Source: Fusobacterium mortiferum ATCC 9817 (lineage in GTDB: Bacteria; Fusobacteriota; Fusobacteriia; Fusobacteriales; Fusobacteriaceae). From it: DNA of 64,000 bases. The translations under genes and the position numbers were made by a program. Under the pieces are notes generated by a model that saw only the letters and a program-made list of their open reading frames with translations, was not told the origin of the DNA and searched no databases. Shown one piece after another: positions 1 through 17,200 of this stretch (position 1 is the stretch's first letter; every line of letters begins with the position of its first letter). The stretch is taken from contig NZ_GL987988.1 in assembly GCF_000158195.2 (NCBI RefSeq), positions 780,215-844,214 on the forward strand, written 5' to 3'.

Positions 1-111
1 GCTAATCATAATAATATAAATACTACTAGAGAACATTATATTAAAGCAAGAACTGGAGCAGAAAATAGAGAAAAAATCAGACAATTAAAGAGAGAAAAAG
101 GTCTAATTTAA
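1..111 (+). CDS. 3' end of an unidentified gene, probably prophage
   Basis: An open frame enters from the left edge and encodes 36 residues ending in a basic, helical tail (REKIRQLKREKGLI) before TAA at 109-111. The start lies outside the window. Its product is not recognisable from this fragment. Because lysis genes follow on the same strand, it is probably a phage structural or late gene; that is inference from position only. It could equally be an unrelated host gene. Confidence 0.45.
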   Translation, partial: ANHNNINTTREHYIKARTGAENREKIRQLKREKGLI

Positions 112-359
112 GCCTAAAAAATTGAATAAATTATTGAATTTATGCATAAACTAAAATTTTTTAAAGATTAAGAAGTCTTATTTTATTTAACTTTCTATAA
201 TTTTTGATAAAAATTGCTCTTACTTCAAAGAGTATTTACTAATTTATTTCGAAAGTTTAGAAATCTATATTTTATAAAGCTTTTTATATTTTAAATCTTA
301 TTAAATTTTGATGAAATTCAATAATTTACACATAAAAAATAAGAAAAAAGGAGAGGAAA
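112..359. other. AT-rich spacer without recognised feature
   Basis: This 248-nt gap separates the partial gene from the next coding region. It is very AT-rich and contains no convincing ORF, strong hairpin or canonical promoter that I could identify. Only the ribosome binding site of the downstream gene (AAGGAGAGG, about 348-356) stands out at its right end. Confidence 0.5.
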
Positions 360-1782: not shown

Positions 1783-2250
1783 ATGGGAGAAATTATTAAA
1801 ACAATAGGAGAAATATTTGGGAATTTTATTCTTCTTATAGTTGATGTTATTAAAATATTAGGTAATGGTATAACAATAGGGTTTGGAAGTCTAGTAGCTT
1901 TTATTTTTCTTGTTACAGGGGGGCAAGATGAAGCAATGAGAATTCTTCTAATTCTTATGACTGTAGACTATCTATCGGGAGTTATTAAAGCATTTGTTAC
2001 TTGTACAGCTAATTCTAAAGCTGGAGTAATAGGAATTTTGAAAAAAGTTATGATAATATTAGTTATAGTTTTAGCTTATCAATTAGATATTCTTTTCAAT
2101 GGGAAACTTGCTATTAAAACTTTAGCAATAGGAGTTTTTATCTCTAATGAAGGCTTATCAATATTAGAAAATGCCTCATTATGTGGGTTACCTATTCCAG
2201 AAAAGTTAAAAAAAGTTCTGGTGCAATATCAAGAATATAAGAAAAAGTAA
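1783..2250 (+). CDS. Phage holin, toxin-secretion/lysis holin family
   Basis: A 155-residue membrane protein with three or four hydrophobic helices. The block LMTVDYLSGVIKAF followed by a small polar loop and a second helix (KVMIILVIVLAYQLDIL) is typical of the Phage_holin_4_1 family, which forms lesions that release endolysin to the wall. The extra hydrophobic N-terminal 40 residues make it slightly longer than common members. It is the last gene of the rightward lysis cassette and is followed directly by a strong hairpin terminator. Confidence 0.85.
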   Translation: MGEIIKTIGEIFGNFILLIVDVIKILGNGITIGFGSLVAFIFLVTGGQDEAMRILLILMTVDYLSGVIKAFVTCTANSKAGVIGILKKVMIILVIVLAYQLDILFNGKLAIKTLAIGVFISNEGLSILENASLCGLPIPEKLKKVLVQYQEYKKK

Positions 2251-2251
2251 A

Positions 2252-2276
2252 AAAAGCCTAGCTCAGCTAGGCTTTT
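2252..2276. terminator. Terminator after holin gene (bidirectional)
   Basis: An 11-bp perfect stem AAAAGCCTAGC / GCTAGGCTTTT with a TCA loop lies immediately after the holin stop and directly before the end of the opposing gene at 2278. The A/T flanks allow it to serve both strands. Confidence 0.85.
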
Positions 2277-2277
2277 C

Positions 2278-2883
2278 CTATTCTAGTGCTACATATCTAG
2301 CATAATTGAATCCTTGAGTATCTACTACAATTTTTGTAATCCCATCAGTTATTCTTACAGCTGTAAAAATACCATCCTCTAATTCTATACAAGTTTCTTT
2401 TAAAAAACTCCATTCATGGAAAAAGTCATTTATAAAAGCCAGAAACTCTTTTTTAGATAAAATAATTGTTTTTACAATTGCCACAGTACTTCTTTCTCTA
2501 TATTTAGTACTTTTGGCTTCTACAATATCAGAAGGTTTACTAGCAAAGGATAAGGTTTTTATTTCAATTTTTGATTCTTCTTCAACAGCCACATATCTAG
2601 CATACTTATTTCCATAAGTATAAACTACGATTTTAGTAGCTCCATCAGTTACTCTTACTGCCGTGAAAACTTTTTCTTGTTCTAACCAATAACAAGTATT
2701 TATTAAAAAATCTTGAGCTTCAAAAAAATCACTAGTAAATTTTTTGAATTCTTTAATTGAAAGTGTTATAGTTTTTATAATAGCTACCTCTTCCTCTTCA
2801 ACATACTTTGGTTCTTGGACTCTTTCCAGGTACTCCTTTAAATCTTTAACTTTTGAAATAAATTTTAATTTTTTAATTTCCAT
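2278..2883 (-). CDS. Uncharacterised protein with tandem internal repeat
   Basis: About 201 residues, made of two clearly homologous halves of roughly 70 residues. Each runs KTI-LS-KEF--F--DFF----FL--TC-LE---FTAVR-TDG-TKIVV-T-G--YARYVA-E. No membrane segment or catalytic motif is evident. The domain resembles small uncharacterised phage-associated domains but I assign no function. The longest frame begins at a GTG (2892), but the AGAGGAG site (2892-2898) is best spaced (8 nt) from the ATG at 2883. The gene runs against the phage late genes and has its own promoter at 2919-2947, as expected for a prophage moron. Confidence 0.65.
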   Translation of the reverse strand: MEIKKLKFISKVKDLKEYLERVQEPKYVEEEEVAIIKTITLSIKEFKKFTSDFFEAQDFLINTCYWLEQEKVFTAVRVTDGATKIVVYTYGNKYARYVAVEEESKIEIKTLSFASKPSDIVEAKSTKYRERSTVAIVKTIILSKKEFLAFINDFFHEWSFLKETCIELEDGIFTAVRITDGITKIVVDTQGFNYARYVALE

Positions 2884-2918
2884 TTCCATCACTCCTCTAT
2901 ATTTCTTAGGTTGTGTGT

Positions 2919-2947
2919 ATATTACCTTACTATTCGTTTAATTGCAA
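2919..2947 (-). promoter_or_regulatory. Promoter copy 1 of repeated moron promoter
   Basis: Reading the minus strand: TTGCAA, 17-nt spacer, TAATAT. The 36-nt block 2900-2935 is identical to 3368-3403 and 3868-3903 upstream of the two neighbouring genes. Confidence 0.75.
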
Positions 2948-2966
2948 GTTATTTATAAAAAAATAA

Positions 2967-2990
2967 AAGTTAGTGGACACCCACTAACTT
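2967..2990 (-). terminator. Terminator of the 117-residue protein gene
   Basis: A 10-bp stem AAGTTAGTGG / CCACTAACTT with an ACAC loop. On the minus strand it is followed by a T-rich run (complement of 2957-2968). The stop codon of the gene lies inside the stem. The same stem sequence recurs at 3437-3464. Confidence 0.8.
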
Positions 2991-3337
2991 CTTAAAGTTG
3001 CCTTTATCATTAAAATTATTTTTTCTATTTCTCCACGATAATTATATTCAAAATTTTCAGTTACTGTATAACTTTTAAAAATCTCTTCTTCACATAACTT
3101 GTCGTTTAATAATTCTATAATAGTTTTTAAAGTAGTATCACAAAATATCTCGAACTCTTCACAAGACATTTTTGTATATTTTTCTAAGTTATAATTCATT
3201 TCTACTTCAGCAGAAAGATACAAGCTTCCATTCTCATATTGTTCTTGAGTTTTTGCTACAAACTCATTAAAAATGATATTAACATTTTCTTTTAATACAT
3301 TTAAATTTTTATTTCTTAATTCTAAATTTTTATACAT
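2984..3337 (-). CDS. Uncharacterised moron protein, paralogue 1
   Basis: A 117-residue soluble acidic protein without recognised domain. It is a paralogue of the product of the next gene (3456-3836). Shared features are an ELR/KR-E-NL start, F--F--KTQ-QYE-GSLYL-AE-E-N--LE-Y, -TTL-T---L and a C-terminal -F-SY--TE---Y-Y-G---KIIL--. The gene has a full AAGGAGG site, its own consensus promoter (3387-3415) and its own terminator. It probably belongs to the prophage accessory set; role unknown. Confidence 0.65.
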   Translation of the reverse strand: MYKNLELRNKNLNVLKENVNIIFNEFVAKTQEQYENGSLYLSAEVEMNYNLEKYTKMSCEEFEIFCDTTLKTIIELLNDKLCEEEIFKSYTVTENFEYNYRGEIEKIILMIKATLRS

Positions 3338-3386
3338 AAAATCCTCCTTATTGGCTCTCTAGCCTTGTATTTCTTAGGTTGTGTGT

Positions 3387-3415
3387 ATATTACCTTACTA
3401 TTCAATTAATTGCAA
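3387..3415 (-). promoter_or_regulatory. Promoter copy 2 of repeated moron promoter
   Basis: Minus strand TTGCAA-N17-TAATAT. The surrounding 63 nt (3341-3403, from ribosome site through spacer) are identical to 3841-3903. The leader carries a small GGCT-AGAG-AGCC hairpin just before AAGGAGG. Confidence 0.8.
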
Positions 3416-3436
3416 GTTATTTATGAAAAGTAAAAT

Positions 3437-3464
3437 AAAAGTTAGTGGATTTCCACTAACTTTT
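3437..3464 (-). terminator. Terminator of the 126-residue protein gene
   Basis: A 12-bp stem AAAAGTTAGTGG / CCACTAACTTTT with a 4-nt loop, A/T-rich on both sides. It overlaps the 3' end of the gene and is nearly the same sequence as the terminator at 2967-2990. Confidence 0.8.
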
Positions 3465-3836
3465 TACAATTGTTTCTACAGTTAAAATAATCTTTTTTAC
3501 TTTACCTGTATATGAATATTTAACCTTTTCAGTTATTGAATAACTTTCAAAAATTCCCATTCCATTTAGGTCATCACCTAAAAACTTTTTTAAAGTTCTT
3601 AATGTAGTAGCATAGAAAACTTTTAATTCTTCTTTGTCCATTTCAATATAATTTTCTAGTTCATCATTCACTTCTAGTTCAGCCACAAGATATAAGCTTC
3701 CTCTTTCATATTGCCTTTGTGTTTTTTCTAGGAAATCATCAAACATATCTCCTGCAATTTCAGCTATTACTTTTAAATTTTCTTCTCTTTTTTCTAAATC
3801 ATCATACATATAATCCCTATAATCTTTATATTCCAT
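3456..3836 (-). CDS. Uncharacterised moron protein, paralogue 2
   Basis: A 126-residue acidic soluble protein, paralogous to the 117-residue product of the neighbouring gene over nearly its whole length (conserved KTQ-QYE-GSLYL-AE-E block and C-terminal KKIIL-V). It has about ten extra N-terminal residues (MEYKDYRDYMYDDL). No known domain is recognised. AAGGAGG precedes the ATG, and the promoter at 3887-3915 matches the other two cassettes. The tandem arrangement at an exact 500-nt offset points to duplication within the prophage. Confidence 0.65.
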   Translation of the reverse strand: MEYKDYRDYMYDDLEKREENLKVIAEIAGDMFDDFLEKTQRQYERGSLYLVAELEVNDELENYIEMDKEELKVFYATTLRTLKKFLGDDLNGMGIFESYSITEKVKYSYTGKVKKIILTVETIVKS

Positions 3837-3886
3837 TATAATCCTCCTTATTGGCTCTCTAGCCTTGTATTTCTTAGGTTGTGTGT

Positions 3887-3915
3887 ATATTACCTTACTA
3901 TTCTTTTAATTACAA
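3887..3915 (-). promoter_or_regulatory. Promoter copy 3 of repeated moron promoter
   Basis: Minus strand TTGTAA-N17-TAATAT, one base different from copies 1 and 2 in the -35 box. The rest of the 3916-4084 interval up to the next promoter holds no ORF or hairpin that I can support. Confidence 0.7.
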
Positions 3916-4084
3916 GTCATTTCTAGGGAAATTAGAAAAATATTGTTTATTAAAATTAGAAATGCTATAATTAGTAATAAAGGAGAAATGCTGGGGGCAT
4001 AGATATATTTATTTTTTTATTAAACCAGCAACCATTTGGAGATGGAATAGGACTATTTAGAAAAAAATAAATATTGTAAGAAAA

Positions 4085-4113: not shown

Positions 4114-4154
4114 CATATTAACAAACTAGGATTATACAAAGTAAGGTGATAATG

Positions 4155-4574
4155 ATGAGTAAACCTAAAATATTAACAAGAAAAAAATTGAGAAAAGAGG
4201 TTCTTGAGCAAATAGAAAATTTTCCAATAGAAGCTCCAAGAGATTATAATATGGCAGATTGGAAATTTGAAAAATTAATAGAGCAGATAAAAACTTTTGA
4301 AGAAGATTTAGATGATGACCATGAGGTAGCTTTAAAATTAGCTTCTTTTGGTTCTGCTGTAGTTATGTATGTGATGACAATAGGCTATCAAAATCCTGAT
4401 ATGCTTTATTTTTATGGATTTGTAGATGGACAGCCAGCTCAACTTATTCAGCATATGAGCCAACTTAATTTTTTGATTACTTCAGTAGAAAAGATAGATA
4501 AGGATAAACCAGCTAGACGTATTGGTTTTGCTCTTCCGACCTTAGATAAAATAGAAGAGAAAATTGAAGATTAA
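4155..4574 (+). CDS. DUF6173-family-like protein
   Basis: About 139 residues, soluble. The block EEDLDDDHEVALKLASFGSAVVMYV, then IGYQNPDMLYFYGFVDGQPAQLIQHMSQLNFLI, matches my memory of the uncharacterised DUF6173 family, often phage- or plasmid-associated. Biochemical role unknown. The longest frame starts at a GTG (4146), but with AAGGTG at 4143-4148 the ATG at 4155 is the better start. It is the first gene of a likely three-gene unit with the candidate antitoxin and the Doc toxin downstream. Confidence 0.65.
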   Translation: MSKPKILTRKKLRKEVLEQIENFPIEAPRDYNMADWKFEKLIEQIKTFEEDLDDDHEVALKLASFGSAVVMYVMTIGYQNPDMLYFYGFVDGQPAQLIQHMSQLNFLITSVEKIDKDKPARRIGFALPTLDKIEEKIED

Positions 4575-4602
4575 CACAGATTAATATTGAGGAGTAATGA
4601 TT

Positions 4603-4737
4603 ATGAGTGAAAAAAAAATAGTTGACATAAAAAGTATTTTTAAAAATAAAGCTTTAGATAATAAAAAAATAAAATTGAAAGCAGAAGAGTTGATGAAAAA
4701 AAATATAACTGCTATGAGATACTTACAAGATAAGTAG
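4603..4737 (+). CDS. Candidate antitoxin of Doc toxin
   Basis: A 44-residue, very basic and helical ORF (MSEKKIVDIKSIF...AMRYLQDK). GAGGAG at 4589-4594 is 8 nt from this ATG; another in-frame ATG at 4597 is too close. Its stop codon overlaps a GTG start of the following Fic/Doc gene (TAGTG), the usual coupling of antitoxin and toxin. It is too short to carry a full Phd DNA-binding domain, so it would resemble only the toxin-neutralising tail of Phd. Antitoxin function is inferred from position and size. Confidence 0.55.
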   Translation: MSEKKIVDIKSIFKNKALDNKKIKLKAEELMKKNITAMRYLQDK

Positions 4738-5183
4738 TGGTATTTATGAATAGTAAATTTTATTCAGAAGAGGCAGAATATTTATATAATTTGGTTATAA
4801 GCTTTAATCAATCAATTATGGAAGATTTAACTCAAGAATCTATTCATAAATTTTCTTTAATAAATGAAAGTAGTCTTTTAAATTATTGTAATACAATTTT
4901 TTCTACTAGACCTTTTAGTGATGAAAAATATTGTGAAACAATAGAAGATTATCTGACATATACTATTTATTATTTAAATAAAGGTCATTGTTTCTTAGAT
5001 GGAAATAAGAGAACAACATTACTTACTACAATGTTTTTTATTGAAGAATTTGGTTTGTATAATTTTGATAATGAATTTTTCAGAGGAGTATTAGCTGTAT
5101 TTTTAGTTGATATGCTAGAAGAAAAGATGACTAAAGAAGACGTAAAAAAATGGATAGAAAAACAATTAAAATCTAAAATATAG
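4737..5183 (+). CDS. Doc-family (Fic fold) toxin
   Basis: A 148-residue single-domain protein with the Fic/Doc signature HCFLDGNKRT, matching Doc-type HxFxDxNKR. Doc enzymes phosphorylate EF-Tu or otherwise modify targets and arrest growth; Fic relatives AMPylate. Length fits Doc (about 125-150 residues). Start is GTG 4737, overlapping the upstream stop, or ATG 4746; neither has a clear ribosome site, consistent with translational coupling to the antitoxin candidate. A strong terminator follows at 5284. It probably serves prophage or island maintenance. Confidence 0.8.
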   Translation: MVFMNSKFYSEEAEYLYNLVISFNQSIMEDLTQESIHKFSLINESSLLNYCNTIFSTRPFSDEKYCETIEDYLTYTIYYLNKGHCFLDGNKRTTLLTTMFFIEEFGLYNFDNEFFRGVLAVFLVDMLEEKMTKEDVKKWIEKQLKSKI

Positions 5184-14205: not shown

Positions 14206-17200
14206 TTATTTTTTATAAAAACTTTTAGGATTTGAGATATATAGTCCACATACACTACTAAGAGGCAACATTGCATAACTAGAAGTAAGTTTTATATCTA
14301 ATTTATCCTCATCTAAAATTTTTAGAACTGTTTCTTTTAATTGATGATTGGGAAGAGATGGATAACCGATAGCAGGTCTGATATTTATTTTCCAAATATT
14401 TTTTGAAACAAAATCTTCTAAATATTCAGCTCCAGCTTCAACAATTCTATTATTTAATAACTCTTCTAATATTTTTAAATACTCTTTTTCTTTAAAAATC
14501 TCACTTTTATAAGAGAGAGCAAAAGCTCCAATATAATCATCATTGTTGATAAATTTATAGATAAAATCCTCTTTAGTAGAAATTATATTATCTTCAATAA
14601 TAAGTTTTCCATCAATTTTTTTACTAGAAAAAATTCCATAGCTTCCTCTAACTTTTAAATTATTTTCTTTCATCTTATTGAAGATAAAACTTAAATCCTC
14701 TTTTATTTTTAATTCTTCATTACTATTTTTAACTTTCAGAGTGTGTAACAGTATATCTAAATTTATGTATTTTTCTATATCTTCTAAAGAGATTTCTAAA
14801 TATTTTTTTCCAATCTCTTTTGGAATTATAACTGGAGATAAAATCTCTTGAGTGTCTTCAATATTTTCTTTTTTATTTTTTTCATATAGTTTTCTTAAAG
14901 TTTTAAAGTTTTGTAATTTTTCACTTAAAAACTCTTCTCTTTCATCAGAACAAAGTTTATTAATTGATTGTAAGGTATCTAAAGCTTCTGATACATGTAA
15001 AACTTTTCCACTGTATAGAGGTTCTAATCTTAGAGCTGTATGGAGAGGAGAGGTAGTAGCACCAGCTATAAGTATAAGAGTTTTCATACTGTTTTCTTGA
15101 AAATATTTTAAGACTTTTTCCATCTCTTTTAAAGATGGAGTAATAAGCCCACTTAAAGTGATTATATCTACATTTTGTTCTTTAGCAGTTGAAAGTATAG
15201 TTTCCTTAGGAACCATAACACCTAAATCTATTATTTCATAGCCATTGCACTTAAGAACTGTTCCTACAATATTTTTCCCAATATCATGCACATCTCCCTC
15301 AACAGTTGCCATTAAGATTTTTCCTTTAGCTTTAACTTTCTCATCACTTTTTAAATGAGGGGTAATTATATTTACAGCTTTATTCATTGTTTCTGATGAA
15401 CGAATAAGCTGAGGAAGGTAAACCTCTCCCTTCTCAAAAAGTACTCCTAATTTTTTCATACCTTCCATTAAGATATTTTGGATAATATCTAGAGGAGAGT
15501 AAATTTTAAGAGCAGAGTTTATATCATTTATAAATTCAGGAGTTTCTCCAAATATTAGAGCATTCTCAATACACTGTTCTAAAGTGAGCTCCTCTTTTAT
15601 AACTACCTCTTTTTTTCTTTGGATATGTAGATTTAATATCTGTTCTAGGCTACTCTCTTCTCCAAATATTAAATCTCTCAAAATCTTCTTATCTTCTAAA
15701 GAGAGAATAGGTGGATTTTCATTTGGATTTAAGATGGCAAAATTTAATCCCCTATTTTTACCCTCTTCTAAAAAGATAGAGTGTAACCCTGCTCTTAAAT
15801 CATTATTTCCTCTAAAAGCAAAGGAAAGATTACTAAGCCCCCCAATGATACCTACACCTTTAAAATTTTTTCTAATCCATTCACAAGCTTTTAAGAAATT
15901 TAGACCATTATATCTATCACTTTCCATTCCTGTTCCAATAGTTAAGATATTTAAGTCAAATATAATATCTGAGTTGCTATACCCTATCTCTTTCAGAATA
16001 GAGTAAGCTCTACTGCATATCTCTATTTTTCTCTCGTAACTAACTCCTTGCCCTTTCTCATCAAAAGCCATAACTACCACAGAGGCTCCATATTTTTTTA
16101 TTACCTGAGCTTTTTTTCTAAACTCCTCTTCTCCCTCTTTTAAGCTAATAGAATTAACAATAGATTTTCCAGCTATATTTTTAAGCCCAGTTTCTATTAC
16201 TTCAAAATCTGAAGAGTCAATCATTATTGGAATTTTAGATACAAATCTATCATTTTGTATAACTATTAGAAAATTTTTCATCTCAATTTTAGATTCAAAT
16301 AATCCGTCGTCCATATTGATATCTATAACTTTTGCTCCATTTTCTATCTGTTTTTTAGCTATCTCTAAAGCTTTGATGTAATTTTTATCAGCTATTAGAT
16401 TTTTGAAAATTTTAGAACCAGCTACATTATTTTTCTCTCCAACATCAACAAATTTATCATTAAAATAAAGGATTTCATTTCCTGAAAGAAAACCCTCTAA
16501 TTTAAAATTTTCCTCAAATTTTCTTGGAGCTCTATTTTTAACTAAATTAGCTATACTTTTTATATGTTCAAAGGTAGTTCCACAGCACCCACCTAAGATA
16601 TTAACCTCTTGGTTATCCACTAACTCTTTTAAATAGTTAGCTGTGATATCTGGAGATTCAAGATACTCTCCATCTTCATTTGGAAGACCAGCATTTGGAT
16701 ATAGAGAGATAGGTTTTTTTGTAAATTTACCAAGCTTTTTAGTAAGAGGAATAAGTTCTTTAGCACCAAAAGAGCAGTTAAATCCATAGGAGATAATACT
16801 CTCTCTATCTAAGGCAACTATAAGGGATTCTATACTTTGCCCAGTAAAGATTTTTCCCTCTTTATTAACAGTGGCAGAAATCATAATAGGAAGATTTATA
16901 TTTTTTCTTTTCATTACCTCTTCAGCACTTATAACAGCACACTTAGCATTTAAACCATCAAATATAGTTTCAATAAGTAGTATATCTACTCCACCATCTA
17001 TCAATCCTTCAATTTGTTCACTGTATGCTTCCTTGAGATAATCAAATTCTAAATCTCTATCATAGGGATTTTTTCCACTAGGAATAGTAAGAGTTTTATT
17101 TGTAGGACCTATTGAACCAGCTATATAGATTTTTTTCTCACTAGTAGTGGTTACCTCTTTGGCAAGTTCGGCACTTCTTTTAGCTATCTCATATGCTCTC

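Follow-up and report, generated by a model that had tools for sequence, protein, structure and literature searches.

Three small minus-strand genes in a prophage of Fusobacterium mortiferum ATCC 9817, each preceded by one copy of a long promoter-like element and followed by an intrinsic terminator, are best interpreted, together with a fourth such unit at the other end of the same prophage, as moron-type accessory cassettes. We put the probability of this interpretation, which is drawn from sequence, at about 0.55. The window referred to throughout is the whole stretch of 64,000 nucleotides that was analysed. Their anatomy gives good support to the description of these units as morons, a term for accessory genes that are transcribed independently. 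We infer in addition that the element acts as a promoter, that it does so in the lysogen and that the encoded proteins serve the lysogen. The repetition of the element is a product neither of chance nor of one recent tandem duplication, because a fourth copy lies at a distance, the element is conserved, the genes behind it belong to differing families and none of the four sister prophages compared has a cassette after its holin.

The prophage and its probable accessory cassettes

The prophage is about 46.6 kb in length and lies between two copies of TTTGGAGATGGAAT, the left one at G000:C2:737692 (G000 being the genome under study) and the right one, the attR core that marks the right end of the prophage, at window positions 4035-4048. 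Integration is at the 3' end of an O-methyltransferase gene, and the site is empty in two other members of the genus, G009 and G010. The prophage ends about 120 nt past cassette 3. Two loci beyond this point were weighed as possible additional cargo and rejected: DUF6173 (4146-4574), which is outside attR and present in both of the empty-site genomes, and a Fic/Doc pair (4597-5183), which is outside attR and on the host side. The latter consists of a Fic/Doc-family toxin-like gene and a small upstream ORF, and in G009 the Fic/Doc-family gene is missing between DUF6173 and DUF1904.

The last late gene is the holin (1783-2250, plus strand), beyond which the minus strand carries gene 1 (2278-2883), gene 2 (2984-3337) and gene 3 (3456-3836). 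The terminator of cassette 1 is a hairpin with a 15-pair stem and a T-rich tail (2248-2280, minus strand), located between gene 1 and the convergent holin. Cassette 2 ends in a 12-bp stem, GTTAGTGG/CCACTAAC, again with a T-rich tail (2965-2992, minus strand), and cassette 3 has the same 12-bp stem with a different loop and a T-rich tail (3437-3464, minus strand), in agreement with the initial annotation, which had two of the cassettes ending in the same hairpin. Four terminators are found in the region, compared with 0.9 expected.

The cassettes had also been described as running against the late genes. This is correct for the holin and the other late genes, which are on the plus strand and opposed to cassettes 1-3, but once the phage is circular they share the direction of the integrase and the early arm. 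Read along a single strand, the circle leads from cassette 4 through the integrase, one small gene and attP to cassettes 3, 2 and 1, such that all four cassettes flank attP and are opposed only to the late genes. The left (early) arm contains YopX and DUF2786 genes, as identified with Pfam, together with ParA-like and replication-type genes recognised by inspection of the ORFs.

Several other segments of the prophage have repeated or inverted sequences. Just upstream of the window, L008:4400-7880 (G000:C2:775400-778880) is a shufflon-like tail-fibre region, in which repeated TTACAGAATTT/AAATTCTGTAA sites, oriented in one direction or the other, separate alternative C-terminal pieces of the tail fibre; it has runs of 100 N inside and adjoins a tyrosine recombinase gene (L008:7890-8897). 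The window starts with a second copy of the 3' end of this recombinase gene (window 1-340 and L008:8780-9115). The stretch of about 190 nt after the 3' end is found in inverted orientation across a run of N, flanked by AATAAATTATTGAATTT / AAATTCAATAATTTA, and is probably a small invertible segment that has been assembled in both states. Inverted repeats of about 75 bp (L006:14490-14565 and 16680-16755) also surround a 2.2-kb prophage segment that holds an HTH_26 gene and a lipoprotein-like gene, and that is possibly a mobile or invertible unit.

Among four related prophages, one of them in the same chromosome, none has a cassette after the holin, which is consistent with the cassettes being dispensable for the phage life cycle. 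In the same-chromosome sister prophage the lysis region has 80% DNA identity, which stops at the holin stop codon, and the gene 126 nt past that stop is, as we recognise it from its sequence, presumably host guaA. Relative to this sister, the cassettes are additional DNA. In the three further prophages, similarity likewise fades at or near the holin stop, and cassettes of this kind are absent. In another prophage, that of G006, a one-domain homologue of gene 1 is present in the same slot, convergent to the holin, and after it comes a small gene that by eye is AbrB-like (L044:4662-5199, G006:C8). The slot between holin and attR thus accommodates different small genes in the opposed direction, in the manner of moron sites.

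The units thus have terminators of their own, intrinsic ones after genes 1-3 and a hairpin after gene 4, and the three in the window are additional DNA past the point, at or near the holin stop, at which homology to the four related prophages ends. The proposal that they are morons, made at the outset from an independent promoter and terminator, is supported by the promoter-like element, gene and terminator of each unit, by the direction against the late genes, by the holin-attR slot and by the four sisters that have no cassette after the holin; it is weakened by the promoter hexamers.

The shared promoter-like element

An exact search of the window for the 43-nt pattern TTGYAA-N6-GAATAGTAAGGTAATATACACACAACCTAAG gives exactly three occurrences, at 2905-2947, 3373-3415 and 3873-3915, all on the minus strand, where 100 shuffles lead to an expectation of 0. 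Near-identical blocks ahead of the three minus-strand genes are thereby confirmed. The block had been given a length of 36 nt, but alignment of the copies reveals that the stretch common to cassettes 1-3 is 55 nt long (AAATRACTTGYAATTAANNGAATAGTAAGGTAATATACACACAACCTAAGAAATA), with four variable positions. By pattern match and copy alignment the three copies extend over 2900-2954, 3368-3422 and 3868-3922 on the minus strand. In copy 1, the -35 hexamer TTGCAA (2942-2947) and the -10 hexamer TAATAT (2919-2924) are 17 nt apart, a spacing that is kept with the TTGTAA found as the -35 of copy 3. Variation among the copies, including the fourth, is found at the C/T of the -35 and at two spacer positions, where the four copies have four different dinucleotides (AC, TT, AA and GG), and scarcely anywhere else. 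Conservation covers the spacer, the start region and the leader, and so reaches well past the two hexamers.

The hexamers match the sigma-70 consensus at 8 of 12 positions, which is under the threshold of the promoter scanner, and the real sequence is no richer in sigma-70-like sites than AT-rich shuffles. Since the match is only 8 of 12, it is position, repetition and conservation, and not the consensus score, that lead us to call the element a promoter. What had been called promoters are thus conserved promoter-like elements with weak hexamers, one of which is found 5' of each cassette gene.

Beyond the 55-nt element, cassettes 2 and 3 have a further identical 26-nt leader, CAAGGCTAGAGAGCCAATAAGGAGGA, which includes the Shine-Dalgarno sequence (3342-3367 and 3842-3867, minus strand) and is also identical in cassette 4. 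Cassette 1 diverges from the repeat past AAATA and carries a ribosome-binding site of its own. A function of the leader as an RNA switch was rejected, as its small hairpin is not stronger than those of shuffles and no Rfam family scores above the gathering score.

Proposed expression of the cassettes

Each unit would act as a complete transcription unit, with a housekeeping-type promoter, a gene and an intrinsic terminator, so that the prophage could supply a small protein even when the phage's own programmes are silent. The promoter-leader may have been a module that was copied and fitted to three unrelated families, represented by gene 1, by genes 2 and 3 and by the DUF4241 gene 4, and that would then have been held nearly unchanged through selection. 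The probable cause of this selection is that the -35, the -10, the start site and the leader together set the right constant level of expression. A dedicated regulator would be unnecessary for this, and a constitutive or nearly constitutive promoter module would be the simplest reading.

The initial annotation had proposed instead that one regulator switches all three genes on. The element has no dyad symmetry (296 of 300 shuffles are equally good) and no inverted repeat better than those in shuffles, and its parts do not recur above chance at other prophage promoters or near repressor genes, nor as a prophage-wide operator. Given the missing dyad and the lack of recurrence at other sites of the prophage, the element is accounted for equally well by a plain constitutive promoter; a dedicated regulator may exist, but nothing points to one.

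The main rival to the moron interpretation is early-lytic use. As has been proposed for the extended start-associated sequence (ESAS) promoters of cluster K mycobacteriophages, the shared promoter could belong to a phage-controlled regulon that is used at infection or induction, in the early lytic or establishment phase, and that a phage regulator turns on or off by binding the conserved spacer and leader. Such a regulon would account for the conservation beyond the hexamers and for the position of all four copies around attP on the strand of the integrase and early arm, and it has a parallel in mycobacteriophage Adephagia, where a 46-47-bp repeated promoter motif drives only some genes in the lysogen (PMC11373665). 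At copy 4, moreover, no terminator was seen between the element and the gene upstream, and read-through from early transcription is therefore possible there. The absent dyad and the lack of recurrence described above argue against it, and we consider a regulon of this kind unlikely, with a probability of about one in four.

A fourth copy and its orthologue

The fourth copy of the element, found by genome search outside the window (G000:C2:740509-740551), is on the same strand as copies 1-3 and 42.6 kb upstream of them, at the other end of the prophage. It precedes gene 4, which encodes a DUF4241 protein, is unrelated to genes 1, 2 and 3 and adjoins a large serine integrase. A second species of the genus, G011, has an orthologue of this copy that keeps its GG dinucleotide. 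Between the two genomes, element and leader differ at 2 of 78 nt, compared with 149 of 658 third codon positions (23%) in gene 4 and the integrase (Fisher p = 2e-6); measured against flanking intergenic DNA alone (2/78 vs about 10/103, p = 0.07), the conservation is only suggestive. The sole change within the element converts the -10 from TAATAT to TATTAT, which is nearer consensus. The terminator stem of gene 4 differs on both sides, being GAAGAGGGA/TCCCTCTTC in G000 and GAAGAGAGA/TCTCTCTTC in G011, with the pairing kept. An element that is kept and a terminator that is compensated would represent the pattern expected of a maintained cassette with a start and a stop. G011 is without cassettes 1-3, but this was not used as evidence, as it also has no match to the holin and this end of its prophage is perhaps lost, different or unassembled.

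The distant copy and its orthologue exclude the possibility, raised at the outset, that the block occurs only here by chance duplication. The wider search for the block that had been proposed added these two but no other match among 61 genomes, in which the searchable Fusobacterium assemblies comprise one genome per species. An exact search of viral contigs found no copy, and genome contigs gave three matches in Clostridia, to one repeated element without the -35 half, which is about the chance number.

Recombination might also have generated most of the arrangement: a cassette would have been duplicated in tandem and gene conversion would have kept the promoters similar, without any coordinated function. 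Genes 2 and 3 are indeed adjacent paralogues with the same terminator stem, and direct repeats of more than 80 nt invite unequal crossing-over. However, the element is carried by three unrelated gene families, copy 4 is 42.6 kb from the others and has an orthologue under constraint, and the copies have not been recently homogenised, since their spacer dinucleotides all differ and the GG of copy 4 is kept in G011. We regard this explanation as improbable.

The cassette proteins

Gene 1 encodes two tandem domains of about 75 amino acids, 59% identical to each other, that belong to phrog_21303. Its ORF is open to 2892, and the start at 2883 is preferred from the spacing of GAGGAG. Pfam gives a weak, sub-threshold match to DUF6329, and the structure prediction for the domain is of low confidence (pLDDT 41). 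Genes 2 and 3 encode orphan proteins of 117 and 126 amino acids, paralogues with 46% amino acid identity and a predicted alpha-beta-alpha-beta-beta fold (pLDDT 85.7, from two sequences). A fold search against the PDB returned nothing significant, the best match being Alba (E 0.035, TM 0.34), and searches of phages, of viral contigs and of 98 genomes from the phylum yielded no relative of either gene. The description of the proteins as being without recognised function is therefore accurate for genes 2 and 3, and is modified for gene 1 in that it alone of the three has a family match, to a phage family itself of unknown function.

The divergence between genes 2 and 3 is rich in amino acid changes (dN 0.38, dS 0.70 by NG86, with a lower dS by another method), compared with the strongly constrained gene 4 (0.05/0.48); this would suit genes in conflict, as weak evidence. 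An anti-phage defence or superinfection-exclusion island, as first suggested, would be in keeping with this divergence and with a moron position and independent expression, which are typical of exclusion genes, but it is improbable and finds no support in the searches, as there is no credible PADLOC, Pfam or NCBIfam match (in PADLOC, genes 2 and 3 give only weak, partial matches with E 0.0035 or worse, and gene 1 none) and no significant match in the fold search.

A more ambitious proposal, which we hold to be speculative, is that a portable phage-borne promoter-leader module recruits unrelated accessory genes, and that the resulting co-expressed lysogen proteins, including the new family of genes 2 and 3, act together on the host or on competing phages.

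Comparison with known systems

In most descriptions, morons are single loci whose promoters are unrelated. Those of lambdoid phages, and STMMW_20121 of ST64B in Salmonella D23580, resemble the present cassettes, as read from their sequence, in consisting of a small gene with its own promoter, putative here, and its own terminator that is antisense to lytic genes and missing from sister phages. Genes with independent promoters, lying antisense to the lytic genes, have been described as a hallmark of moron loci (PMC7067206). The present system differs in that several cassettes with different genes have one common promoter-leader, and in that its transcription in the lysogen is a prediction. A sequence tag of this type eases prediction, as any gene found behind the element in further strains becomes a candidate accessory gene.

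The closest known analogue is the extended start-associated sequences (ESAS) of cluster K mycobacteriophages. The ESAS/SAS element is about 50 bp long and has sigma-A-like -35 and -10 sequences with a spacing of about 17 (PMC3203893, PMC11373665); some ESAS promoters are on in lysogens and others are not (PMC11373665). Like the present element, ESAS recur ahead of several non-structural genes within a single phage lineage, are conserved between relatives and in part come with conserved sequence around the ribosome-binding site. However, the sequences are unrelated: the 13-bp SAS, GGGATAGGAGCCC, is not encountered before the start codon here, where the leader is CAAGGCTAGAGAGCCAATAAGGAGGA, and ESAS contain a 15-17-bp imperfect inverted repeat that the present element lacks. 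There are also seven copies of ESAS as opposed to four, and here every copy opens a cassette closed by a terminator of its own. The use of one conserved promoter for several cassettes with different genes would illustrate how a phage standardises the expression of genes that it has acquired, and would place such standardisation outside the mycobacteriophages, in which a comparable repeated element is known.
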